Made by a program: the position numbers and the translations under genes
Shown here: positions 4,086-18,829 of the stretch, piece after piece
Numbering within the stretch: the first letter of the stretch is position 1
How the letters are laid out: each line of letters starts with the position of its first letter
NCBI GenBank assembly: GCA_018335195.1
Contig: JAGXKN010000010.1
Coordinates: 1 to 64,000, forward strand
Direction: 5' to 3'
Length of the DNA: 64,000 nucleotides
From: Desulfobacterales bacterium
Lineage (GTDB): Bacteria; Desulfobacterota; Desulfobacteria; Desulfobacterales; Desulfosalsimonadaceae
Notes under the pieces: model-generated
What the model was told of the DNA's origin: nothing
The model's input: the letters and a program-made list of their open reading frames with translations, nothing else
The model's database searches: none

Positions 4086-5915
4086 ATGGACCGTATCAAG
4101 CAACTGCCGGTGCTCGTAAAACAGCGCATTCGTACGGTCAACCTTGCCCGGGCGGGCAAATGGAGCTTTTTTTTCGTGCTCATCGGTGTTATCGCGGGCA
4201 CAGGTTCGGTGATTTTCCAGTATCTCTGCCAGCTCGGGGCGCACGTGTTCATGGACTGGATGGCGGGCTACCGGCCGCCCGCACCGGCGGGCGAGCACCA
4301 CATCCTCCCGCCCACGGCCACGGAGTTCAGCCGCTGGGTGCTGCTGTTTCTGCCGGCAGCCGGCGGGCTGCTCAGCGGCTGGCTGGTTTACCATTTTGCC
4401 CCGGAAGCCGAGGGTCACGGCACGGATGCCGCAATTGACGCATATCATCAAAGTGGCGGGTTTATGCGGTCCCGGGTGCCGGTTATCAAAACCCTGGCCT
4501 CGGCCATCACTCTGTCCACCGGCGGCTCCGGGGGAAGGGAAGGGCCGATTGCCCAGATCGGCGCAGGATTCGGTTCTTTTCTGGCCACCCGCCTCAAGCT
4601 CTCCGAGCGGGAACGACGGATCATGCTGGCAGCCGGCATCGGCGCAGGCGTGGGCAGTATATTCCGCGCGCCGCTGGCAGGCGCACTGTTTGCCTCCGAG
4701 GTGCTCTACAGCGATCCGGATTTTGAATCCGAGGTCATTATTCCCGCCGGGATTTCCTCTGTGGTGGCCTATTGCCTTTTCAGCCTGGTCTTTGGCTGGG
4801 GCACGCTGTTTGATTCCCCGGAGTTTAAGTTCCAAAACCCGCTGGAGCTCGGGCCCTATATTGTATTGGCCCTGGTGCTGGCCGGGCTGAGCTATTTTTA
4901 TGTGAAATCCTTTTACGGCGTCGGCGACCTGTTCCGGGCCATTAAGATCCCCAATCATTTCAAGCCGGCCATCGGCGGCATGCTCACGGGAATGATCGGC
5001 TTTTACCTGCCCACCACCCTGGCTTTCGGCTATGGATATGCCCAGCAGGCCATTTTCAATGAACTGGCCATATCCGTGTTGCTGGCCCTGGCCCTGGGCA
5101 AAATTCTGACCACTTCGTTTACCATCAGTTCGGGCGGCAGCGGTGGTGTTTTCGGGCCGTCGGTGGTCATCGGCGGCGCCATGGGCGGGGTGATCGGAAA
5201 GCTGTTCCACCAGTTCATCCCCGGCATTGTCGCCAACCCTGGCGCCTTCGTTGTGGTCGGCATGGCCGGCTTTTTCACGGCCGTATCCAATGCGCCCATT
5301 TCCACGATCATTTTTGTCAGCGAGATGACCAATTCATACGAGCTGCTGCTGCCCAGCCTGTTTGTTTGTTCCATCTGCTATGTGACTTCCCGCCGCTGGG
5401 GGATTTACCGGAGGCAGGTCAAAAACCGGGTGGCCTCCCCGGCCCATGCCGGGGAGTTCATGGTGGACGTGCTGCAGATGATGAAGGTTCAGGACCTGAT
5501 GCACCTGGTGCACAAGGTGGAGTCCATCCCCGAGCACATGCCTTTCCGGGAGTTCAAGCTGTTTTTCTCCCGGACCAAGCAGCACTATTTTCCGGTCATG
5601 GATGAAGACGGCCGCATGGTGGGGATTTTTTCCAGCACCGACGTGCGGGGGGTCCTTTTTGCCCCGGATATTGAGCAGCTGGTGGTGATGCGCGACATTG
5701 CCACCACAGAGGTGGTTTCCACCACGGCATCCGAGGATTTGAATGTCGTGCTCCAGAAAATGACCACCAAGAATATTGACAGCCTGCCTGTGGTATCTGA
5801 AGATGACGAGCGGGTACTGCTGGGCATGCTCGACCGCCGGGACCTGATTGCATTTTACAACCGCCAGATCCAGCGCCTCCGGGCAGGCGAATTGGCCTCG
5901 CAGGCCGCGGCCTAA
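4086..5915 (+). CDS. ClC family chloride transporter with C-terminal CBS pair
   Basis: A 609-residue integral membrane protein of the ClC family. The three anion-pathway signatures are present: a GSGGREGP motif near residue 145, whose Glu is the gating/proton-coupling residue, a GSGGVFGPS motif near 350, and a late hydrophobic helix region. About ten hydrophobic helices fill residues 20-440. Two CBS domains follow at about 470-595 (starting at KVQDLMHL and IATTEVVS), a nucleotide-sensing module common in bacterial ClCs. It would exchange Cl- for protons, or act as a channel, in the cytoplasmic membrane. It lies 43 bases downstream of the aminotransferase and converges on truA 7 bases away. 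Confidence 0.93.
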   Translation: MDRIKQLPVLVKQRIRTVNLARAGKWSFFFVLIGVIAGTGSVIFQYLCQLGAHVFMDWMAGYRPPAPAGEHHILPPTATEFSRWVLLFLPAAGGLLSGWLVYHFAPEAEGHGTDAAIDAYHQSGGFMRSRVPVIKTLASAITLSTGGSGGREGPIAQIGAGFGSFLATRLKLSERERRIMLAAGIGAGVGSIFRAPLAGALFASEVLYSDPDFESEVIIPAGISSVVAYCLFSLVFGWGTLFDSPEFKFQNPLELGPYIVLALVLAGLSYFYVKSFYGVGDLFRAIKIPNHFKPAIGGMLTGMIGFYLPTTLAFGYGYAQQAIFNELAISVLLALALGKILTTSFTISSGGSGGVFGPSVVIGGAMGGVIGKLFHQFIPGIVANPGAFVVVGMAGFFTAVSNAPISTIIFVSEMTNSYELLLPSLFVCSICYVTSRRWGIYRRQVKNRVASPAHAGEFMVDVLQMMKVQDLMHLVHKVESIPEHMPFREFKLFFSRTKQHYFPVMDEDGRMVGIFSSTDVRGVLFAPDIEQLVVMRDIATTEVVSTTASEDLNVVLQKMTTKNIDSLPVVSEDDERVLLGMLDRRDLIAFYNRQIQRLRAGELASQAAA

Positions 5916-5922
5916 ACGGCTC

Positions 5923-6663
5923 TCAGTAGGTCACGGATACCAGGAACAACCCGTGGGGCGGAGCGGTGGCAGCAGCCTGGCTCCGGTCCAGCGAATCCCG
6001 TATGGTGGCAAAATCGGCCGGAGTGATTTTGCAGCGGCCAACTGCGACCAGTGTGCCCACGATGTTTCGCACCATGTAGCGCAGAAATCCGTTGGCAGTG
6101 ATTTCAAAGGTCAGATGCGGGCCGTGTTCATCGGACATAATGCGGGCCGCGGATACCGTGCGGATGGAATCGGACCGGGGGCTTCCGGTGTTTTCAAACG
6201 CGGAAAAGTCGTGGGTGCCCACAAGAGCCTCTGCCGCCTGCTGCATGGCGCCGACATACAGCCTGTTTTTGATATGCCAGGCATACTGCCGCCCGATGGC
6301 CGCGGGCAGATCCCGGTTTAGGATGTAATAGCAATAGGTCTTTTCCCGGGCGTCGTATCTGGCATGGAAGGACTCGTCTGCCGGCTGACAGGAATGGATG
6401 ACGATGTCTGCGGGCAGCAGGCTGTTTAACCCGGAGAAAAAATCATCTGTCGTAAGGCGGGTTTTGCAGCGGAAATGGGCGGTCTGCCCCAGGGCGTGCA
6501 CACCGGCATCGGTGCGGCCCGAGGCGGTGACCCGGATGTTTTGCCGGGTCATTTGAAATACGGCCGCCTCGAGGGCCCCCTGGATCGTGCGGCCGGATTT
6601 CTGGATCTGCCAGCCGTTGAAATCCGTGCCGTCGTATTCGATAATGAGTTTGAAGTTTTTCAT
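5923..6663 (-). CDS. truA: tRNA pseudouridine(38-40) synthase TruA
   Basis: A 246-residue protein of normal length for TruA, which isomerises uridines 38, 39 and 40 in the tRNA anticodon stem-loop. The start MKNFKLIIEYDGTDFNGWQ is canonical. The catalytic Asp lies in the GRTDAGVHALGQ motif near residue 50, and the C-terminal segment FLRYMVRNIVGTLVAVG is the conserved RNA-binding/dimer helix of the family. I chose ATG at 6663 because the conserved family start begins there; a longer frame to 6699 adds an unconserved leader. Divergent from argJ. Confidence 0.95.
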   Translation of the reverse strand: MKNFKLIIEYDGTDFNGWQIQKSGRTIQGALEAAVFQMTRQNIRVTASGRTDAGVHALGQTAHFRCKTRLTTDDFFSGLNSLLPADIVIHSCQPADESFHARYDAREKTYCYYILNRDLPAAIGRQYAWHIKNRLYVGAMQQAAEALVGTHDFSAFENTGSPRSDSIRTVSAARIMSDEHGPHLTFEITANGFLRYMVRNIVGTLVAVGRCKITPADFATIRDSLDRSQAAATAPPHGLFLVSVTY

Positions 6664-6723
6664 GGTTTGTTGTGTAATGTGTATGAATGCCAATTGCAAT
6701 AGCTATACAGGAGAAACTTGAAC

Positions 6724-7896
6724 ATGGCCAAGGGATTTCAGGCCGCGGCGGTTTCAGCCGGGATCAAGAAAAACGGGAAAAAGGACCTGGCATTGATCGT
6801 ATCAGATGCGCCCGCCGCGGTTGCCGGCGTGTTTACCAGGAACCGGGTTCAGGCCGCACCTGTGGTCCTCGACAGACAGCGCCTGGCCGGAGGTACATGC
6901 AGGGCAATCATTGCCAACAGCGGCAATGCCAACTGCGCCACAAAGCAGCAAGGCATAGCAGATGCCGTTGCCATGACCCGCTCGGTTTCAGATGCTCTGG
7001 AGGCGGATCCGCAGCACGTGATGGCGGCTTCCACCGGGGTCATCGGCGTGCCGCTGCCCGTGGATAAAATTCTCTCCGCAGTGCCGGACCTGGTGGCGGC
7101 ACTGGACCCGGACGGATTTGCGGATGCGGCAGAAGGCATCATGACCACGGACACAAAAGCCAAGCTGGTCCGCAGACAGGAGAAAATTGACGGCCAAAGC
7201 TTTCAGATCACCGCCATGGCCAAGGGCGCCGGCATGATCCGCCCGGACATGGCCACCATGCTCTGTTTTGTGTGCACCGACATTGACATGGATGCCCCGT
7301 CCTTGCAGCAGGCCCTGGCTTATGCCAATGAACGCTCGTTTAACCGCATTACCATTGACGGGGATACCAGCACCAATGACACGGTACTGGTCATGGCAAA
7401 CGGCCGTTCCGGGGCCGCGGCTCGAACCCCGGAGCAGAAGGATGTATTCTCGGGCCTGCTTGCAGGGGGTCTTGAAGAACTGGCCAGAAAGATTGTGGCT
7501 GACGGGGAGGGGGCCACCAAGTGCGTGGAAATCGCGGTTATCAATGCGCATAATGAAAAAGCCGCCCGGCAGGCGGCTGATACCGTGGCCAATTCGAACC
7601 TGGTCAAGACCGCCTTTTACGGCGAGGATGCCAACTGGGGGCGCATTCTGGCGGCACTGGGCCGGGCCGGGGTGGAATTTGACCCGGAGCGGGTGGACAT
7701 CTGGTTCGGAGATGTGCGCATGGTGGAAAACGGGGCCGGCTGCGGCGACCAGACCGAGGCCGCGGCCACGCAAGTGCTGCGGAACGAGGAATTTTCCGTT
7801 TTTATTGACCTGAAGTCCGGGACCGCACGGGCATCGGTGCTGACCTGCGATTTTTCCGTCGACTACGTGAAGATCAACGCCGACTACCGGAGTTGA
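6724..7896 (+). CDS. argJ: Bifunctional ornithine acetyltransferase/N-acetylglutamate synthase ArgJ
   Basis: A 390-residue ArgJ. The family transfers the acetyl group from N-acetylornithine to glutamate in the arginine cycle; bifunctional members can also use acetyl-CoA. The precursor is autocatalytically cleaved before a conserved Thr, seen here in MAASTGVIGVPLP near residue 100; the downstream KGAGMIRPDMATML and EDANWGRILAALGRAG segments are also family-typical. ATG at 6724 is preferred: AGGAG lies 10 bases upstream, while the TTG at 6718 is only 4 bases from it. It is a dispersed arginine gene, with no other arg genes in the window. The stop is 2 bases ahead of the next gene's ATG, so the two are co-transcribed. 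Confidence 0.95.
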   Translation: MAKGFQAAAVSAGIKKNGKKDLALIVSDAPAAVAGVFTRNRVQAAPVVLDRQRLAGGTCRAIIANSGNANCATKQQGIADAVAMTRSVSDALEADPQHVMAASTGVIGVPLPVDKILSAVPDLVAALDPDGFADAAEGIMTTDTKAKLVRRQEKIDGQSFQITAMAKGAGMIRPDMATMLCFVCTDIDMDAPSLQQALAYANERSFNRITIDGDTSTNDTVLVMANGRSGAAARTPEQKDVFSGLLAGGLEELARKIVADGEGATKCVEIAVINAHNEKAARQAADTVANSNLVKTAFYGEDANWGRILAALGRAGVEFDPERVDIWFGDVRMVENGAGCGDQTEAAATQVLRNEEFSVFIDLKSGTARASVLTCDFSVDYVKINADYRS

Positions 7897-8643: not shown

Positions 8644-8685
8644 CCGACCACCGACCACCGACCACCGACTACCGACTACTGCCTA
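8644..8685. repeat. Degenerate 7-bp tandem repeat
   Basis: Three exact CCGACCA units (8644-8664) are followed by two CCGACTA units (8665-8678) and a decayed CTGCCTA (8679-8685). The last unit overlaps the stop codon of phoU on the minus strand. The array lies between the convergent 3' ends of the pseudouridine synthase gene and phoU. Confidence 0.8.
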
Positions 8686-9390
8686 CTGAGAACTTTCCGG
8701 ATCCTCTTCCCGCAGTTTCTGGTGCTTGATATTGATCCCCTCCACGATAAAGGCCACGTGTTCGCCGATGTTGGTGGAAAGGTCCCCGACTCTCTCTAAA
8801 CACCGGGAGATGATAATGGTCTGGATGGAGCGCCGGGTTTTCAGGCGGCGGCTGTCAATTGCCGGGGCGTCTGCCACCATGTGTTCGATCAGGCTTTTTA
8901 ACACCTGCAGGGTGGCCTCGTCTGCCTGGTCGTCCATATTGCGGACATCCTTGGCGGTCCGGGCGTCCATGTCCCGCATGGAGGATACGGCCTTTTTGAG
9001 CATCTGCCGGCTGATATCAATGAGACGGTCCATGGCGCCGATTTCCCCGAGCGGCGGATACTGGCACAAAAATATGGTCCGCTCGGAGATGTTGACCGCC
9101 TGGTCGGCAATGCGTTCAAGCTCGTTACTGATCTTCATGTTTCCCATGATCATCCGCAGGTCCCGGGCCATCGGCTGTTCCAGGGCCAGCAGGCGCAGGG
9201 ACTGCTTGTCGACCTCCAGCTCGATCTGGTTGATCTTTTTGTCTCCGTCGATGATTTTCTGGGCCAGATCCACGTCCCGATGCGCGTAAGCCCTGATGGC
9301 GTTTTCAAAGGCCTGCTGGGTAAGGGCGGCCATGTTTAATACAGTGAGTTTGAGTTGTTCGAGCTCTTCATGAAAATGGAGTCGTTCCAT
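8683..9390 (-). CDS. phoU: Phosphate signalling and transport regulator PhoU
   Basis: A 235-residue all-helical PhoU with the two tandem PhoU repeats: the first has VDLAQKIIDGDKKINQIE and SNELERIADQAVNIS, the second DARTAKDVRNMDDQADEA and RCLERVGDLSTNIGEH. The E-x-ER-x-x-D metal-binding motifs are intact in both. PhoU links the Pst transporter to the PhoR kinase so that PhoB signalling is shut down when phosphate is plentiful. It is the last gene of the minus-strand run phoB-phoR-pstB-phoU, 9 bases after pstB. Confidence 0.96.
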   Translation of the reverse strand: MERLHFHEELEQLKLTVLNMAALTQQAFENAIRAYAHRDVDLAQKIIDGDKKINQIELEVDKQSLRLLALEQPMARDLRMIMGNMKISNELERIADQAVNISERTIFLCQYPPLGEIGAMDRLIDISRQMLKKAVSSMRDMDARTAKDVRNMDDQADEATLQVLKSLIEHMVADAPAIDSRRLKTRRSIQTIIISRCLERVGDLSTNIGEHVAFIVEGINIKHQKLREEDPESSQ

Positions 9391-9399
9391 CAGGCCTCC

Positions 9400-10161
9400 T
9401 TAGCCGAACCGTCCGGTGATGTAGTCTTCGGTTTGTTTGAGCTCCGGCCGGGTAAACAGGGTTTCGGTTGCGCCGACCTCGATGAGCCGGCCCATGTAGA
9501 AAAACGCCGTAATGTCTGAAACCCGCGCCGCCTGCTGCATGTTATGAGTGACAATGATGATCGTAAAGCTTTTTTTCAGGTCATGAATCAGGTCTTCGAT
9601 TTTCTGTGTGGCAATGGGATCCAGGGCGGAGGCCGGCTCGTCCATGAGCAGGACTTCAGGTTCCACGGCCAGGGCCCGGGCAATGCAGAGCCGCTGTTGC
9701 TGGCCGCCGGAAAGCCCGAGTGCGGACTGGTGCAGCCTGTCCTTGATCTCGTCCCACAGGGCGGCCTGCTTGAGACTCCATTCCACTTTTTCCCGCAGAA
9801 CCCCCTTGTTTTTCACCCCGTTTACGCGCAGGCCGTAGGCCACGTTGTCAAAAATGGTCTTGGGAAACGGGTTGGGCTTTTGAAAGACCATGCCCACGCG
9901 CCGGCGCAGGCTGACCACGTCTACGCTCGGCGCGTAGATGTTTTCCCGGTCCAGCAGGATTTCTCCTTCCACGCGGCTTGCCGGGATCAGGTCGTTCATG
10001 CGGTTTAAGCACCGCAGGAATGTGCTTTTGCCGCATCCCGAGGGGCCGATCAATGCGGATACCTGCTGCTGGTGCAAATCCAGGTTGATATCGGCAAGCG
10101 CGTTATAGTCGCCGTAATAAAAGTTGAGACTTTTTATGGTGAATTTCGCTGGGTCCGTCAT
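9400..10161 (-). CDS. pstB: Phosphate ABC transporter ATP-binding protein PstB
   Basis: A 253-residue ABC ATPase. The Walker A motif is [19 protein letters not shown] near residue 40, the ABC signature [15 protein letters not shown] near 150 and Walker [15 protein letters not shown] near 170, followed by the switch His in [11 protein letters not shown]. It energises phosphate import with PstSCA. ATG at 10161 is preferred because AAAGGA stands 9 bases before it; a longer reading to 10284 would run back into the kinase gene. It sits 14 bases downstream of the phoR stop. It is separated from pstSCA and instead placed with phoBR and phoU on the opposite strand. Confidence 0.96.
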
Positions 10162-10175
10162 ATATGCAAATCCTT

Positions 10176-11978
10176 TCATTCCGGATCGGTTGGCGCGGTG
10201 ATCGCTTCGGATGCTTCTGCCCGGGACAGTGAAAAACAAAACACGCTTCCACGGGTTTGCCCCGGGGGCGGGCTTTTCACCCATATGCGGCCGGCCATGG
10301 CTGCCACGGCGTGCTTGCAGATGGAAAGGCCCAGGCCGGTGCCGCCGGAGGCCCGGCTGCGTTCCTTGTCAATCCGGTAAAACCGCTCAAAGATCCTGTC
10401 CTGATGCGCCGGGGCAATCCCGGGCCCCTCATCCTGAATGGCAAAAATGATTTCCACGTTTCCGGCCTCGGAAGAAGCCGTGATGGTTCCGCCTTGCGGA
10501 GAGTATTGCACCGCGTTGTCAATCAGGTTCCGAAAAACCCGGCTCAATGTTGATTCATGGGCGTATACCCACAAGGGAGATGTCAGCCGGTTGTCCAGGC
10601 GGATTTGTTTTTCATCTGCAATGGGCTGGAAAGTTTCCCACGTGGAGTCAAACATCCGGGCCGCCTCTACCGGCTGCAGGCTCAAGTGCGGGGGTTTTTC
10701 CTCCAGGCGGGTGAGTTCGAGCAGGTCATTGACGATGTTGGTCATCTGCGCGGCATTTTTCTGGATTGTAGACAAAAATGCCAGTCCTTGCGCGTTGATC
10801 GAAAAATCACCTGCAATCAGGGTGTCCACATACCCCTTGATGGAGGTCAGGGGCGTTTTAAGCTCGTGGGAGACGTTGGCCACGAAATCCCGGCGGATTT
10901 TTTCCAGCCGCTTGCGCTCGCTGATGTCGTAGAAAACCATCAATGCCCCGCCATCTGGAATTTTTGCCGCATACATTTCATAGTAGCGCTCTTGTTCCAT
11001 GGAAATGGTAAGGCTGTACTCGGATCTCCCCTGCAGGATTTTGTTGCAGGCGGCCTGCACCTCGCTGTTTAAAAAAGCCTCCAGGGGGCGTTTGCCGATG
11101 CAGGAAAGATGACACTCGGCAATGCCGGCCATGGAGCGGTTCAGTGCCTTGATGCGCCCGGTCCGGTCGATGAGCATCACCCCTTCGCGCATGTTCTCGA
11201 GAATGGTTTCCATCTCCCGGTTCTGCTCGGAGATCACCTCCATTTGTTCGCGGATCCGGTCTGCGGTCTCGTTGAGCGTCATGGACAGATCGTAGAATTC
11301 CCTGCCGGAATCCAGGATATATTGATGGGAGAAATCGCCGCCGGCAATTGCCTTGAGCCGGTTTATCACCTGGTGCACCGGCGCTTCGAATTTGCGGGCC
11401 AGATATACGCTGAAAAGAAATGTGAGTGCGAAAATCAGTGCCAGGCCGGCCAGGAAATTTTCCGTGTAGTTGCTCAGCCGGTTTTCCACCGAGGAAACCG
11501 GATACGCGGTGCGCAGGTAGAGATCATCACTGCCGGTGGGAGAATTGATTTTTCTGGCTGCATAAATGAGTTCCTGCTTCAGCGTGGAGCTGTAGCGGAT
11601 GCTCACAGCCGGATCCCGGGCCTTGGCCGAGCGGATTTCCTCGCGGTCGGCATGGTTTTCCATGTACCGGATTTCCTTGTAGGGCACTGAGGAATCGGCA
11701 ATGACCGCGCCGCCCGGGGTAATCAGGGTGATACGGGAGCCGAGTTTCTCCCCCGCTGAGGTGGCCCATCGGTCCAGGGCAGCATTGCTTTCAAACGGGG
11801 CCTCCCCGGCGAGCATCCACTCGATGAAATCCAGATGGCGCAGGGCTTTTTCCCTGGATTCTTTGAGGAGTTCGGACTCCAGGGTGTTGTACACGTAAAA
11901 CCCGGGCAGAAGGATTGCCAGGAGCAGCACCGCGCAGAAGGAGACAAACAGCCGGGTTCTGAATTTCAGATTTTTCAT
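10176..11978 (-). CDS. phoR: PhoR-type membrane sensor histidine kinase
   Basis: A 600-residue kinase. Order of parts: TM1 about residues 8-28, an extracytoplasmic domain of about 140 residues, TM2 about 173-193, HAMP to about 245, PAS about 255-360, HisKA with the phospho-acceptor His in [15 protein letters not shown] near residue 370, and HATPase_c with [19 protein letters not shown] and [12 protein letters not shown]. The large periplasmic domain makes it longer than E. coli PhoR, which has almost none, but matches PhoR-like kinases of many other phyla. Its ATG directly abuts the phoB stop codon, so the two are translationally coupled. It would phosphorylate PhoB when phosphate is scarce. 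Confidence 0.88.
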
Positions 11979-12665
11979 TTACGTTTCCTTGAATCGATAG
12001 CCAACGCCGCGTACGGTTTCAATGTCTTCGGCATAGGGCGCGATTTTCTGGCGCAGCCGCCGGATGTGGGTATCCACGGTCCGGGCGTAGCCTTCGAACT
12101 GATATCCCCACACCCGGTCGAGCAGTTGATCCCGGGAGCGGACCCGCCCCTTGTTCTGCAGCAGATCCAGCAGGAGGTTGAACTCGGTTACCGTCAGCCG
12201 GATCGGTTCCCGGCCGATATGGACTTTGTAGTTTTCCGGCTCCACGGTCATCTCCCTGTGGCGCAGTACGCCCGGGCGCTGTTGGGCGGGTGGTTCATGC
12301 CGCCGGAGAACCGCCCGGATACGCAGCAGCAGTTCCCTGGGGGAAAAGGGCTTGACCAGGTAATCGTCTGCGCCGAGTTCGAACCCCACGATCCGGTCGA
12401 CTTCCTCGCCCTTGGCCGTGAGCATGATGACCGGGATATCTGCGGTGGCCTGGTTGCGTTTCATGGTTTTGCAGACCTCGAGTCCGTCCATGCCCGGCAG
12501 CATCAGGTCTAGAACCAGCAAATCGGGTTTTTCATGGATCGCCGTTTCCAGGCATTTTCTGCCGTCCTTGCTTTTCAGCGTTCGGTAGCCTTCGGATTCC
12601 AGGTGCCAGATGACCAGGTTGAGAATGTCCGGGTCGTCTTCGACGACCAGAATGGTTCTATCCAT
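11979..12665 (-). CDS. phoB: OmpR-family response regulator PhoB
   Basis: A 228-residue two-domain regulator. The receiver (residues 1-120) has the acidic pair in VVEDDPDIL, the phospho-acceptor Asp in LLVLDLMLPGMDG, the Thr in VIMLTAKG and the Lys in YLVKPFSPRELL. The C-terminal winged-helix domain carries the TVTEFNLLLDLLQNKG recognition-helix region and ends with the usual VRGVGYRFKE. ATG at 12665 is preferred, with GAGGT about 10 bases upstream. First gene of the phoB-phoR-pstB-phoU run and divergent from pstS across a 336-base control region. Confidence 0.94.
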   Translation of the reverse strand: MDRTILVVEDDPDILNLVIWHLESEGYRTLKSKDGRKCLETAIHEKPDLLVLDLMLPGMDGLEVCKTMKRNQATADIPVIMLTAKGEEVDRIVGFELGADDYLVKPFSPRELLLRIRAVLRRHEPPAQQRPGVLRHREMTVEPENYKVHIGREPIRLTVTEFNLLLDLLQNKGRVRSRDQLLDRVWGYQFEGYARTVDTHIRRLRQKIAPYAEDIETVRGVGYRFKET

Positions 12666-12816
12666 TTTTTTTACCTCGCGCCGGTTCTGCATGGCGCGGT
12701 TGTATTGGGTAACCTATTGGCAAAAACGGCGCCGGCGGAATTTGTTGCGTTTGTATGAAACCGGCTTAATTTTTGATTATCCCGTCCGTTTTCAGTTGGT
12801 TGGACAATAACCCGGA

Positions 12817-12917
12817 TTTGTGACAACCCGTCGAAGACTTTGTGAAGATTTGGTGACAAAATTGACACGCAATCTTTATTTGCATGTCACAGAATCGTCA
12901 TAATCGCACGCTAGGTT
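12817..12917 (+). promoter_or_regulatory. PhoB-like half-site array and candidate pstS promoter
   Basis: In the phoB-pstS divergent region the tetramers GTGA (12820, 12842, 12853), GACA (12864) and GTCA (12886, 12897) fall on one 11-bp phase. The sharpest match to the known Pho box (two CTGTCAT-like repeats 11 bp apart) is ATGTCACAGAATCGTCAT at 12884-12901. A TAGGTT at 12912-12917, ten bases after that box, could be the -10 of an activator-dependent promoter, the usual layout when PhoB replaces the -35 contact. pstS starts 84 bases further on. The 12666-12816 part shows no clear motif. The spacing is seen; PhoB binding is inferred. Confidence 0.65.
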
Positions 12918-13001
12918 ACGGGCTAACAGATCGCAGGGGCATCGAAAAAACATACGCTCCGCATCCTTATAAAAATACCAGAAAAATGGAGGGTTTCAAC
13001 A

Positions 13002-13820
13002 ATGAAAATGAAAAAGCTTTTGATCACACTGATTTTTGGGCTCATCTGCACCGGGCTGACCCTGGGCACGGCATGGGCCGAAAGCCTGGTCATGAAGGGC
13101 TCGACCACGGTATTGCCCATTGCCCAGCAGGCGGCTGAAACCTTTATGAATGAATACCCGGACGTGCAGATATCGGTGTCCGGCGGCGGATCCGGAAACG
13201 GGATCAAGGCGCTGGTCGACGGAACCACCGATATTGCCAACGCCTCCCGTTTTATCAAGCAAAAGGAGGTCGCCCGCGCAGTGGAAAACGGTCATTATCC
13301 GGTGCCGTTTGGTATCGCTTTTGACTGCATCGTGCCGGTGGTCCACAATTCCAATCCGGTGGACGATTTGAGCGTCGATGAGCTGAAAAAGATTTATCAG
13401 GGCAAGATCAAGAACTGGTCCGAGGTCGGCGGCAAGGACATGCAGATCGTGGTGGTATCCCGGGATACCTCCTCGGGCACCTATGAGGTCTGGGAGGAAA
13501 AAGTGCTCGAAGGCGGGCGCGTTTTCCCCGGAGCCCTTCTGCAGGCCTCAAACGGCGCCGTGTCCCAGGCGGTGTCCAAGAACAAGTATGCCATCGGGTA
13601 TATCGGACTGTCCTACCTGAACAAGGAGGTCAAGGACCTGAAGGTAAAGGGTGTCCGGGCCAGCAAGGATACGGCCGCGGCTTATCCCGTCAGCCGGACC
13701 CTGTACATGTTCACCGACGGATGGCCCGAGGGGGTGACCCTCCAGTTCATGAACTGGATCATGCATCCGGAAAAGGGACAGAAAGTCGTTGAAAACGTGG
13801 GGTATGTGCCTTTATATTAA
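13002..13820 (+). CDS. pstS: Periplasmic phosphate-binding protein PstS
   Basis: A 272-residue PstS-like binding protein. A signal peptide (Lys-rich start, hydrophobic ITLIFGLICTGLTLGTAWA) is followed by the family start SLVMKGSTTVLPIAQQAAE, SVSGGGSGNGIKALVDG, the SRDTSSGTYEVWEE phosphate-binding loop near residue 155 and AIGYIGLSY. No lipobox Cys is evident, so it is probably soluble in the periplasm. It captures phosphate for the PstCAB channel. First gene of pstS-pstC-pstA; a strong hairpin separates it from pstC. Confidence 0.95.
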   Translation: MKMKKLLITLIFGLICTGLTLGTAWAESLVMKGSTTVLPIAQQAAETFMNEYPDVQISVSGGGSGNGIKALVDGTTDIANASRFIKQKEVARAVENGHYPVPFGIAFDCIVPVVHNSNPVDDLSVDELKKIYQGKIKNWSEVGGKDMQIVVVSRDTSSGTYEVWEEKVLEGGRVFPGALLQASNGAVSQAVSKNKYAIGYIGLSYLNKEVKDLKVKGVRASKDTAAAYPVSRTLYMFTDGWPEGVTLQFMNWIMHPEKGQKVVENVGYVPLY

Positions 13821-13936: not shown

Positions 13937-14824
13937 ATGAAACGCCAGAGAAAAGAAGGGATGATCCGGAACCTCTTTTTTGCCATCGCCTTTGTGTCCA
14001 TTGCCATCTTGCTCTTGATCCTGTTTTTTCTTGTCAAGGCGGGAGTGCCCATATTTGAAAAGGTGTCGGTCACGGAATTTATCTTTGGCAAATACTGGTA
14101 TCCCACGGCCAGCCCGCCGGATTTCGGCATCTTGCCGCTGGTTTTGGCCTCCCTGTTTGTAACCCTTTTTTCTGCGGCCATTGCCGTGCCGCTCGGCGTG
14201 ATGACTGCGATTTATATTGCCGAAATCGCTTCAGCGAGGCTAAAGGAGATTGTCAAGCCGGCCGTGGAGCTGCTGGCCTCGCTGCCTTCGGTGGTGATCG
14301 GGTTTTTCGGGATGGTGGTGGTGGCGCCTTTTCTGCAACAAACCTTTGACCTGCCCACGGGCCTGAACCTGTTTAACGCCTCTTTAATGCTGGCCTTCAT
14401 GTCCGTGCCCATTATCTGCACTATATCCGAGGATGCCATCAGCAGCGTGCCGCCGGAATTAAAAGAAGCCTCCCTAGCCCTGGGCGCCAACCGGATCGAA
14501 AGCATTTTCCGGGTAATTATCCCGGCATCCCTTTCCGGCATCAGCACCGGGATCATCCTGGGCATGGCCCGGGCGATCGGGGAAACCATGGTGGTGCTGA
14601 TGGTTGCCGGTGGCGCGGCCATGATTCCCGGATCCCTGTTTGACCCGGTGCGGCCCATGCCGGCCAGCATCGCCGCAGAAATGGCCGAAGCCCCGTTTCA
14701 GAGCGATCACTATCACGCCCTGTTTGCCATCGGGATCATTTTGTTCGTGTTCAACCTGGTGTTTAATTCCGTGGCAGACTATATTTCCCATAAACACCGG
14801 CAGGTCGGGGCAGCGACCCTGTAA
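13937..14824 (+). CDS. pstC: Phosphate ABC transporter permease PstC
   Basis: A 295-residue inner-membrane permease with about six hydrophobic helices. The ABC-permease loop (EAA-like) is visible as PPELKEASLALGANRIESIFRV with the G-x3-I region near residue 185. It forms the transmembrane channel with PstA. ATG at 13937 is chosen because GAGGAG lies 7 bases upstream and the hydrophobic N-terminus begins soon after; the frame can be read back to 13853 but that would run through the intercistronic hairpin. Confidence 0.94.
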   Translation: MKRQRKEGMIRNLFFAIAFVSIAILLLILFFLVKAGVPIFEKVSVTEFIFGKYWYPTASPPDFGILPLVLASLFVTLFSAAIAVPLGVMTAIYIAEIASARLKEIVKPAVELLASLPSVVIGFFGMVVVAPFLQQTFDLPTGLNLFNASLMLAFMSVPIICTISEDAISSVPPELKEASLALGANRIESIFRVIIPASLSGISTGIILGMARAIGETMVVLMVAGGAAMIPGSLFDPVRPMPASIAAEMAEAPFQSDHYHALFAIGIILFVFNLVFNSVADYISHKHRQVGAATL

Positions 14825-14856
14825 TCCCGGGAAAAATGGAACAGGAGAGATCTCTG

Positions 14857-15747
14857 ATGAACGAAATGCAGCATAACGAATTGGTTTTCACGAAATCGGT
14901 TCTGGGGCGCAACATCAAGCAGCAGGTTTTTTTCAGCCTGTTCCGGGGGGCTGCCGGAATTAACGCCCTGGCCCTGCTGATTGTCGTTTACTTCCTGGTC
15001 AAAAACGGATGGACCGCCATCAGCTGGGATTTTTTAACCGAGGCCCCGCGGGATTCCATGACAAAAGGCGGCATTCTGCCGTGCATTGTCGGCACCGCCT
15101 ACCTGAGCATCGGCGCGCTGGCCATCTCCATGCCCCTGGGTATCGGCTCGGCCGTTTATTTAAACGAGTATGCCCGGCAGGGATTGATTGTCCGGCTGAT
15201 CCGGTTTGCCATCAACAACCTGGCAGGCGTGCCCTCGGTGGTCTTCGGCCTGTTCGGGCTGGCATTTTTCGTGACCTGGATGAATCTGGAGGTCAGCATT
15301 CTTTCCGGGGCTCTGACCCTGGGCTTTTTAAGCCTGCCCGTGGTGATCGGCGCATCCGAGGAGGCCCTGCGCGCGGTGCCCGATACATACCGGGAAGCCT
15401 CCCTGGGCCTGGGGTCCACCAAGTGGCAGACCATCTCCCGGGTGGTGCTGCCAGCGGCATTTCCTTCCATGATTACCGGCGGGATCCTGTCTTTGAGCCG
15501 GGCGGCCGGGGAGACCGCGGCCATCATGTTCACCGCGGCCGTGTATTTCAACAAGCAGCTTCCGGATTCCATTTTCGATCCGGTCATGGCCCTGCCGTAT
15601 CATATTTACGTGCTGGCCACGGCGGGCACAAACATCGAGCAGACCCGGCATCTGCAGTACGGCACCGCCCTGGTGCTGATTGCCCTGGTGCTGGGCATGA
15701 ACCTGCTTGCCATTGTTTACCGGGCAAGGCTGCGCAGAAAGGTTTAG
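14857..15747 (+). CDS. pstA: Phosphate ABC transporter permease PstA
   Basis: A 296-residue inner-membrane permease, partner of PstC. The EAA loop is visible as PDTYREASLGLGSTKWQTISRV near residue 180, and GGILSLSRAAGETAAIMFTA is the strongly conserved PstA segment after it. Its start is taken as ATG 14857, with AGGAGAG 7 bases upstream; ATG 14836 is an alternative. It begins 32 bases after pstC and ends the plus-strand pst operon, which lacks pstB (found across the divergent promoter). Confidence 0.94.
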   Translation: MNEMQHNELVFTKSVLGRNIKQQVFFSLFRGAAGINALALLIVVYFLVKNGWTAISWDFLTEAPRDSMTKGGILPCIVGTAYLSIGALAISMPLGIGSAVYLNEYARQGLIVRLIRFAINNLAGVPSVVFGLFGLAFFVTWMNLEVSILSGALTLGFLSLPVVIGASEEALRAVPDTYREASLGLGSTKWQTISRVVLPAAFPSMITGGILSLSRAAGETAAIMFTAAVYFNKQLPDSIFDPVMALPYHIYVLATAGTNIEQTRHLQYGTALVLIALVLGMNLLAIVYRARLRRKV

Positions 15748-16143: not shown

Positions 16144-17337
16144 ATGAAGCGGGAATTATTTTATGCCCTGAATTTGATGCTGTGCACGGCCCTGGCCCTC
16201 TGTCTTGTCTCGGTAAATGCCCGGGAGGTACGCGCAGGGGGGGTGAAGTACACAGAAGGCGACAAATGGCTGGAGATCGGCGGCCGGATCCAGGTCCAGT
16301 ATCACAAGGTGGATCCGGACAGCGGCGATTCAACCGATGAGATGTTTTTCCGCCGCCTGCGGCCCTATATCGAGGGGAGCACCCATCCGGACTGGATGGG
16401 CAAGTTCCAGTTCGACTACGGCAAGGCTGAAGACGGCAATGAGGTGGCGGTCAAGGACGCTTATCTGGCCTACAGGGGGATGGCGAATATGACCGTCAAG
16501 GTCGGCAACGCCCTGACGCCTTTCTCCCGGGAAACCCTGACCTCATCCAAACGTCAGCAGCTCGTGGAGCGAACCTTTGTGGGTGACCACAACTACGGCA
16601 GCCCGGACCGCAACCTGGGCGCGCACTTTTCCGGAAACGCCATGAAGAAGAAGTTCGGCTGGGCCGCCACCGTTGCCCAGGCCAGCATTGATCCGGACAC
16701 TGACAAGCTCGATTTTGACACCCCGGTCAATCGGAATTCGGATTTCAATGACGGCTGGATATTCGGCGGCCGGGCGGACTTCCATCCTTTCGGCTACCTG
16801 AAGATGGCCCAGGGGGATTTCAAGAAGGATCTCAAGGCCACCTTCAGCCTGGCGGCCTTTACTTGGTCAAACGATAGTGACAACAATACATACATCGATG
16901 AAACTACCGGCCTGACAAATAATCCCGGGGATGACCAGCAGGACGTTGACAGCGTCACCGGATTTGAAATCAGCGGCGCTTTCAGGTACATGGGCATTTC
17001 GGTGGACGCCCAGTACAATATGTTTGACGCTGAACTGGTGGATGAAACCCTGACATCCGGCATCTACGAAAACGGCGAGACAGACCTGGAAAACTGGGCT
17101 GTTGAAGGCGGATACATGCTGCCCAACAACATGGTCGAATTCGTGGCCGGCTATCAGGTACAGGATGCCGACGGATATGCAGAAAAATGGACCCGTACCT
17201 CTGTCGGTGCCAATTATTTCTTTACCCGCAATCACGACATCAAGCTGCAGGCCACCTACCGGATGGGCGAAAACAAAGACGGTATTGACGGCGAAGATGA
17301 GGATGAGGTGTTTGTGCAGATGCAGTATGTCTTCTAA
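16144..17337 (+). CDS. Outer-membrane porin, phosphate-selective OprO/OprP type
   Basis: A 397-residue exported beta-barrel. Signal peptide at about residues 1-31 (ending VNAREVRAGG), then the family opening WLEIGGRIQVQYHKVD, RRLRPYIEGSTHPDWMGKFQFDY and KVGNALTPFSRETLTSSK, all typical of the phosphate-selective porin O/P family. It ends in Phe (QMQYVF), the usual BAM-recognition residue. Alternating hydrophobic strands continue to the end. Position just after pstSCA fits a role in phosphate uptake across the outer membrane. Selectivity is inferred from family and context. Confidence 0.85.
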   Translation: MKRELFYALNLMLCTALALCLVSVNAREVRAGGVKYTEGDKWLEIGGRIQVQYHKVDPDSGDSTDEMFFRRLRPYIEGSTHPDWMGKFQFDYGKAEDGNEVAVKDAYLAYRGMANMTVKVGNALTPFSRETLTSSKRQQLVERTFVGDHNYGSPDRNLGAHFSGNAMKKKFGWAATVAQASIDPDTDKLDFDTPVNRNSDFNDGWIFGGRADFHPFGYLKMAQGDFKKDLKATFSLAAFTWSNDSDNNTYIDETTGLTNNPGDDQQDVDSVTGFEISGAFRYMGISVDAQYNMFDAELVDETLTSGIYENGETDLENWAVEGGYMLPNNMVEFVAGYQVQDADGYAEKWTRTSVGANYFFTRNHDIKLQATYRMGENKDGIDGEDEDEVFVQMQYVF

Positions 17338-17569: not shown

Positions 17570-18829
17570 ATGAAAAAAGGGGTTTTGGCGGGAATTTTAA
17601 CAGGAATTTTATTCTTTTTTATGGCGCTGCCAGCAGGTGCGGTGACCGTGGATTTTCACGGAAAGGCCCTGACCGGCGTACTGGGCAGTTCCAACGACTA
17701 TCTGCTGGGCGGCGAATATGGCGACAGCACCATAATGGGGGTGGGCAAGGTCCGCCTTCGGGCCGAAGTGGGCACGGACGACGGCCGGGCCAAAATGGTC
17801 TACGGGTTTGAGACCGGGGCCAACAATTTCGGCGAAAGCGATACATGGGAGTATTCGGGCGACAGCAAGGATTTCGAAAACCGGTTTGCCTATATCCAGT
17901 CGACACTGCCGGGCATGACAGACAATATCTTTGCCAGGGCCGGCTTGCAGAAGACCGGGATCAACCAATGGGTGTGGACGGAAACCGCTGCCGGCCTCAC
18001 CGCATATGGCAAGGGCAATGTGAACTGGATGACCGGTTGGTTCCGGGGGCTTGAAGAAGATTATAACAGCGGAGTGCACGATACCGATCTTTTTGTCGCA
18101 AAAGGCGATTTCAGCCCAGCATCCGGGGTGACCATCGGCGGCTTCGGCGTCTATGCCACGGATTTCGGGGGCAAGGGCGTCTACGAGCAGGAAGCCGACC
18201 AGTTCTGGGTGGGCACCACCGGCGATCTCAGCGGCAAGGTGTTTGCTTCCGGCGACTTGGTCTACCAGGGAGGCGATGCCGGCCCGGGCGGGAACCAGGA
18301 TGTTTCGGCCTACCTGGCCAATGTCACCGTGGGCACGCACATCAACGACACCAGCAAGGTTTCCTTTAACGCGTTGTATGTCAGCGGCGATTGCGACGCC
18401 AGCGACAGCGACCAAGAGGCCTTCCAGTCCATTGATGCGGACGTGAAGGTGGGCCAGATTTTTTTCAAGGACTCCATAGCAGCATCCATGGACCGGTTTG
18501 TGGATGATATGTTTGGTGAAAGGCAGACCTTCGACGGAATGAGAAACAACGGCCTGATCAACTTTGCCGTGGAAGGCGAGATGCAGCTGGATGCCAAAAA
18601 CAACCTGCGCGGCGCAGTACGCTACCTGGCCACTGCAGAGGAATACGCCGGCGAAGATGACCTGGGTTATGAGTTCGACCTATGGTATTCTTACAAGATG
18701 AACCAGAACCTGACGCTAAAGCTCGAGGGGGCGTATCTGATCTCCGGCGATCTGGCCGAGCACCCTGATGTGCTCAATGATGACGACAATGTCTACCAGG
18801 TCGGCGCGGGCGCGGTGTTTGCGTTCTAA
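17570..18829 (+). CDS. Outer-membrane porin-like beta-barrel protein
   Basis: A 419-residue protein with a clear signal peptide (MKKGVLAGILTGILFFF then ALPAGA) and a mature sequence rich in Gly, Asp, aromatic residues and alternating strands. It ends in Phe (GAVFAF). The segment LRAEVGTDDGRAKMVYGFETG and the long acidic loops are like general porins of Desulfobacterota, but I do not recognise a specific family. It is followed by its own strong terminator and preceded by one, so it is monocistronic. A general diffusion or anion porin is likely; a link to the Pho regulon is only positional. Confidence 0.7.
   Translation: MKKGVLAGILTGILFFFMALPAGAVTVDFHGKALTGVLGSSNDYLLGGEYGDSTIMGVGKVRLRAEVGTDDGRAKMVYGFETGANNFGESDTWEYSGDSKDFENRFAYIQSTLPGMTDNIFARAGLQKTGINQWVWTETAAGLTAYGKGNVNWMTGWFRGLEEDYNSGVHDTDLFVAKGDFSPASGVTIGGFGVYATDFGGKGVYEQEADQFWVGTTGDLSGKVFASGDLVYQGGDAGPGGNQDVSAYLANVTVGTHINDTSKVSFNALYVSGDCDASDSDQEAFQSIDADVKVGQIFFKDSIAASMDRFVDDMFGERQTFDGMRNNGLINFAVEGEMQLDAKNNLRGAVRYLATAEEYAGEDDLGYEFDLWYSYKMNQNLTLKLEGAYLISGDLAEHPDVLNDDDNVYQVGAGAVFAF

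Follow-up and report, generated by a model that had tools for sequence, protein, structure and literature searches.

The phoB-pstS intergenic region very probably carries two divergent PhoB-activated promoters of sigma70 type, which lie back to back at 12804-12917 of the window (the whole 64-kb stretch of DNA analysed here). Anatomy, phase, orientation, conservation and -10 spacing were read directly from the sequence, and from these we infer PhoB binding and activation, the transcription starts and the operon structure. The region is an ordinary phosphate-starvation switch, unusually neat and well conserved.

The ORF list gave the gene order phoB, phoR, pstB, phoU on the minus side and pstS, pstC, pstA on the plus side. 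The minus side starts with phoB (11979-12665, minus strand), encoding an OmpR-type response regulator with its likely start ATG at 12665. It is followed by the sensor kinase gene phoR (10176-11978), homologues of which lie next to phoB in relatives; by the ABC ATPase gene pstB (9400-10161), downstream in the predicted phoB operon and with a PstB homologue adjacent in L037 and L062; and by phoU (8683-9390), identified from its own sequence. The plus strand contains pstS for the phosphate-binding protein (13002-13820, GGAGG at about 12989) and the permease genes pstC (13938-14824; the ORF is listed from 13853 and ATG 13938 was picked as start) and pstA (14836-15747). Since Pst transporter genes are found on both sides of one intergenic region, the transporter appears to be split between two divergent operons. 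The predicted operators sit at pst and phoB-phoR, which are Pho regulon genes. Two outer-membrane porin-like genes were observed 3' of pstA (16144-17337 and 17570-18829), and the first was by eye similar to the phosphate-selective porins O and P.

A preliminary description had reported six tetramers on one 11-bp phase, and all six are at their claimed positions: GTGA at 12820, 12842 and 12853, GACA at 12864, and GTCA at 12886 and 12897. Thus GTGA, GTCA or GACA occupies six of eight successive 11-bp-phased positions starting at 12820, which is the sole such place in the window. In 5,000 dinucleotide shuffles of 12666-13001 the maximum was three phased positions and none reached six; for the other periods from 8 to 14, no more than three phased tetramers were found. 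Such phasing far exceeds chance, and the sites are genuine. The single run of six was a different matter: the phase holds, but two orientations had been pooled, GTGAC being GTCAC read on the opposite strand. Nor does GACA at 12864 belong to the GTGA register: it ends the half-site TGACA (12863-12867), which is plus-oriented and shares its phase with TGTCA at 12885. Two degenerate units had been missed, at about 12831 (CTTCG, minus strand) and at 12874 (CTTTA). They close the gaps of the ladder, which then consists of eight units, four minus and four plus.

Arrays on both strands of the entire window were scored by summing an E. coli-style half-site score (CTGTCAY) over four successive 11-bp units. 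The best arrays of both strands converged on the phoB-pstS intergenic region. The top minus-strand array, the predicted PhoB operator facing phoB, occupies 12820-12859 and reads TTGTCACCAAA (12859-12849), TCTTCACAAAG (12848-12838), TCTTCGACGGG (12837-12827) and TTGTCAC (12826-12820). Exactly 10 bp past its last half-site is a -10-like hexamer, TATTGT (12804-12809, minus strand), for the putative phoB promoter. The top plus-strand array, the predicted operator facing pstS, occupies 12862-12901 with TTGACACGCAA from 12862, TCTTTATTTGC from 12873, ATGTCACAGAA from 12884 and TCGTCAT at 12895-12901; again exactly 10 bp further is the -10-like hexamer TAGGTT (12912-12917, plus strand), a poor -10 that matches in three of six positions. 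There are two -10 candidates, one on either side, where the preliminary description had named a single one. Degeneracy is seen in unit 2 of the plus array and unit 3 of the minus array. A 2-bp joint (12860-12861) separates the innermost half-sites of the two operators.

When the intergenic region was shuffled, one of 2,000 shuffles reached the array score on each strand, and none of 2,000 on both. The pattern of half-site pair plus -10 had a single zero-mismatch match in the 3.29-Mb genome, located at pstS; a one-mismatch match at C2:37777 was an orphan. A scan of the intergenic region with the sigma70 consensus found no -35/-10 promoter for phoB or pstS, as would be expected for Pho promoters. 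We also ran on the window's own genome a sequence model built from arrays of other genera only, the window's genus being left out. It recovered the pstS array (E 0.0016), the phoB array (E 0.065) and a region on C9 (E 0.007). This last region (L074, 4770-4912) is likewise Pho-like and carries arrays on either strand, with possibly six units on the plus side. It lies between an arsenate-reductase-like gene (4121-4552) and a PHP/glycosyltransferase gene (4997-7483) that may act in membrane lipid remodelling.

PstS homologues were traced in 92 of 116 genomes. Conservation was followed in the 22 genomes of the window's family (eight genera sharing ancestry, the window's own genome included) in which pstS is divergent from phoB. 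Arrays were picked by half-site score alone, without -10 information; the plus arrays of L029 and L045, for which the automatic score took another register, were placed by hand. Four units were kept in both operators of all 22 genomes, two plus rows being hand-placed, and the 11-bp phase, whose conservation in relatives had been proposed as a check, was likewise kept in 22 of 22. Among the spacers from 5 to 14, only spacer 10 gave TANNNT on the plus side, in 19 of 22 genomes, and TA was present at spacer 10 in all 22 once L029 and L045 were hand-placed. The minus side showed TANNNT at spacer 10 in 8 of 22 and TA at this spacer in 22 of 22. Distances to the start codons ranged widely in the same genomes (33-361 and 70-630 bp). 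With a conserved operator and a TA-type -10 on each side in 22 of 22, the most likely reading is one suggested earlier, in which the two divergent transcripts, phoB-phoR-pstB-phoU and pstS-pstC-pstA, are both controlled from here.

The earlier suggestion of a cooperative filament fared less well. It would have six or more PhoB protomers form an unbroken filament that acts as a unit on both promoters, and all units do stand on one approximate 11-bp ladder, while the joint is kept at 2-4 bp in 16 of 22 genomes (13-17 bp in four, 159 and 504 bp in two). But a 3-bp joint gives little room for insertions or deletions, so its conservation may be neutral. Moreover, a filament calls for one orientation, and of the six named sites three lie in minus orientation; the orientation flips in the middle of the region, and head-to-tail contacts cannot run through it. 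Natural insertions separate the two halves as well. L003 carries a 149-bp insert with flanking AAATTGAC direct repeats between the operators, and L012 about 500 bp, and in both genomes both arrays are intact, which favours two separable promoters. A single filament of six sites is thus neither shown nor needed, and we regard it as unlikely. Regarding the inserts themselves, that of L012 contains a small zinc-ribbon ORF, FmdB-like by eye, and CGTAAAAAGT, similar to the L003 AAATTGAC repeat, recurs in the intergenic region of L008, which suggests a mobile repeat.

It might also be argued that only the pair at 12884-12901 on the pstS side is functional and the remaining units are decoys or decayed repeats, since information content is highest in units 3 and 4 of the plus array (9.0 and 10.0 bits). 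Conservation extends to the outer plus units (6.8 and 7.3 bits), and the minus operator is kept in 22 of 22 genomes with its own -10 at spacer 10, so we consider this very improbable. Even harder to credit is that the repeats arose by chance or bind another regulator of the OmpR family, although tandem repeats are bound by many such regulators (PMC3264566) and each genome searched encodes many of them. The motif fits the PhoB boxes of E. coli and D. vulgaris, it is located at pstS and phoB, and its second base tracks PhoB residue 201 across the order. The preliminary assignment of the half-sites to the PhoB type is supported.

The PhoB encoded in the window shares 46% full-length identity with E. 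coli PhoB, and its recognition helix is RTVDTHIRRLRQ, compared with RTVDVHIRRLRK in E. coli. The base-contacting residues of E. coli PhoB are T194, V197, R201 and R219 (PMC3264566); T194, R201 and R219 are identical in the window PhoB and V197 is replaced by Thr. A fixed TGTCA model gave poor arrays in the rest of the order, through which the half-site TCTAAC was recognised: other families have pstS arrays of unchanged layout with this half-site (e.g. L020, L021, L023 and L044). Scored against shuffles, each class alone separated the two groups poorly, because TGTCAC and TCTAAC share four of six letters. The groups did separate when base 2 was counted with a model favouring neither class: G:C was 69:0 for the window's family and 7:66 outside it. 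Counted per genome, the ratio was 24:0 versus 4:29 (Fisher p about 3e-12, with shared ancestry ignored).

The window's family has the PhoB helix RTVDTH[IV]RRLR, whereas nearly all other families sampled have Gly at 201, in the helix RSVDVQIVGLRKK or one very similar. G040, outside the family, is an independent Arg201 case and combines CGTAAC/TGTAAC half-sites with the helix RTVDVHIRRLRKKL; this pairing of Arg201 with G is what a reading of base 2 by residue 201 would predict. Judged from these sequences, residue 201 (Arg or Gly) appears to be correlated with half-site base 2 (G or C). Transfer may have replaced PhoB in the window's family, considering that identity between the groups is only about 46% for PhoB and mostly about 55-66% for PstS. 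A wider proposal joins to this a single eight-protomer PhoB assembly: a selected joint of 2-4 bp would couple the output of the phoB and pstS operons, and the PhoB half-site would have switched within the order (TGTCAC with Arg201, TCTAAC with Gly201) under a fixed layout. Taken as a whole, we find it rather doubtful.

For the two back-to-back promoters, we propose that under phosphate limitation PhoR would phosphorylate PhoB, and PhoB dimers would occupy the four units of each operator in head-to-tail order, with one half-site every 11 bp. The last unit, 10 bp from the -10, would replace the -35 element. The minus operator would drive phoB-phoR-pstB-phoU, providing autoregulation and the transporter ATPase, and the plus operator pstS-pstC-pstA; the split Pst transporter and its regulator would in this way be turned on together.

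The region offers a clean and well-conserved example of Pho operators in uncultured relatives of sulfate reducers. The comparison brought out what appears to be a naturally occurring shift in PhoB specificity inside a single order, and the pair of residue 201 and base 2 provides a testable two-letter element of the DNA-reading code of OmpR/PhoB proteins. The four-unit Pho layout itself is already known, and the back-to-back phoB-pstS pair is a further case of a known type, in which the four-unit, 10-bp-spacer layout of E. coli pstS extends to both directions of a divergent region.

By definition a Pho box consists of two 11-nt units, and multiple boxes occur at ugpB (PMC4415409). The preliminary remark that known Pho boxes have two repeats was misleading, since four units are scored at E. 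coli pstS and the operators of Streptomyces PhoP comprise four to six (PMC7866108). Under the same array scoring, the E. coli pstS control read CTGTCATAAAA CTGTCATATTC CTTACATATAA CTGTCAC, 10 bp, TATTTT. It resembles the present operators in having four 11-bp units with one inner unit degenerate, a 10-bp spacer and a TA-type -10, but works in one direction only, with glmS upstream on the same strand and phoB elsewhere. E. coli ugpB also has more than one tandem box, by array scoring and in the literature (PMC4415409). E. coli phoB is autoregulated, as proposed here, and has an additional weak antisense repression site over its -10 (PMC6194859).

In Streptomyces, complex (type III) PhoP operators contain four to six 11-nt direct repeat units that are filled as the regulator concentration rises, and pitH2 has four core and two ancillary units (PMC7866108). 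The multiple 11-nt direct repeats are shared with the present region, whereas the half-site is GTTCACC (PMC4415409) and there are no two opposed operators. For D. vulgaris, the box of PhoB (DVU1083) is an experimentally verified (c/t)GT(n)AC direct repeat (PMC3333781). This box lies upstream of pstS-C-A in a sulfate reducer and belongs to the same half-site class as ours; it is described as a 6-bp repeat with a 4-bp spacer, and a divergent four-unit phoB-pstS pair is not described in the part of the account drawn on here (PMC3333781).
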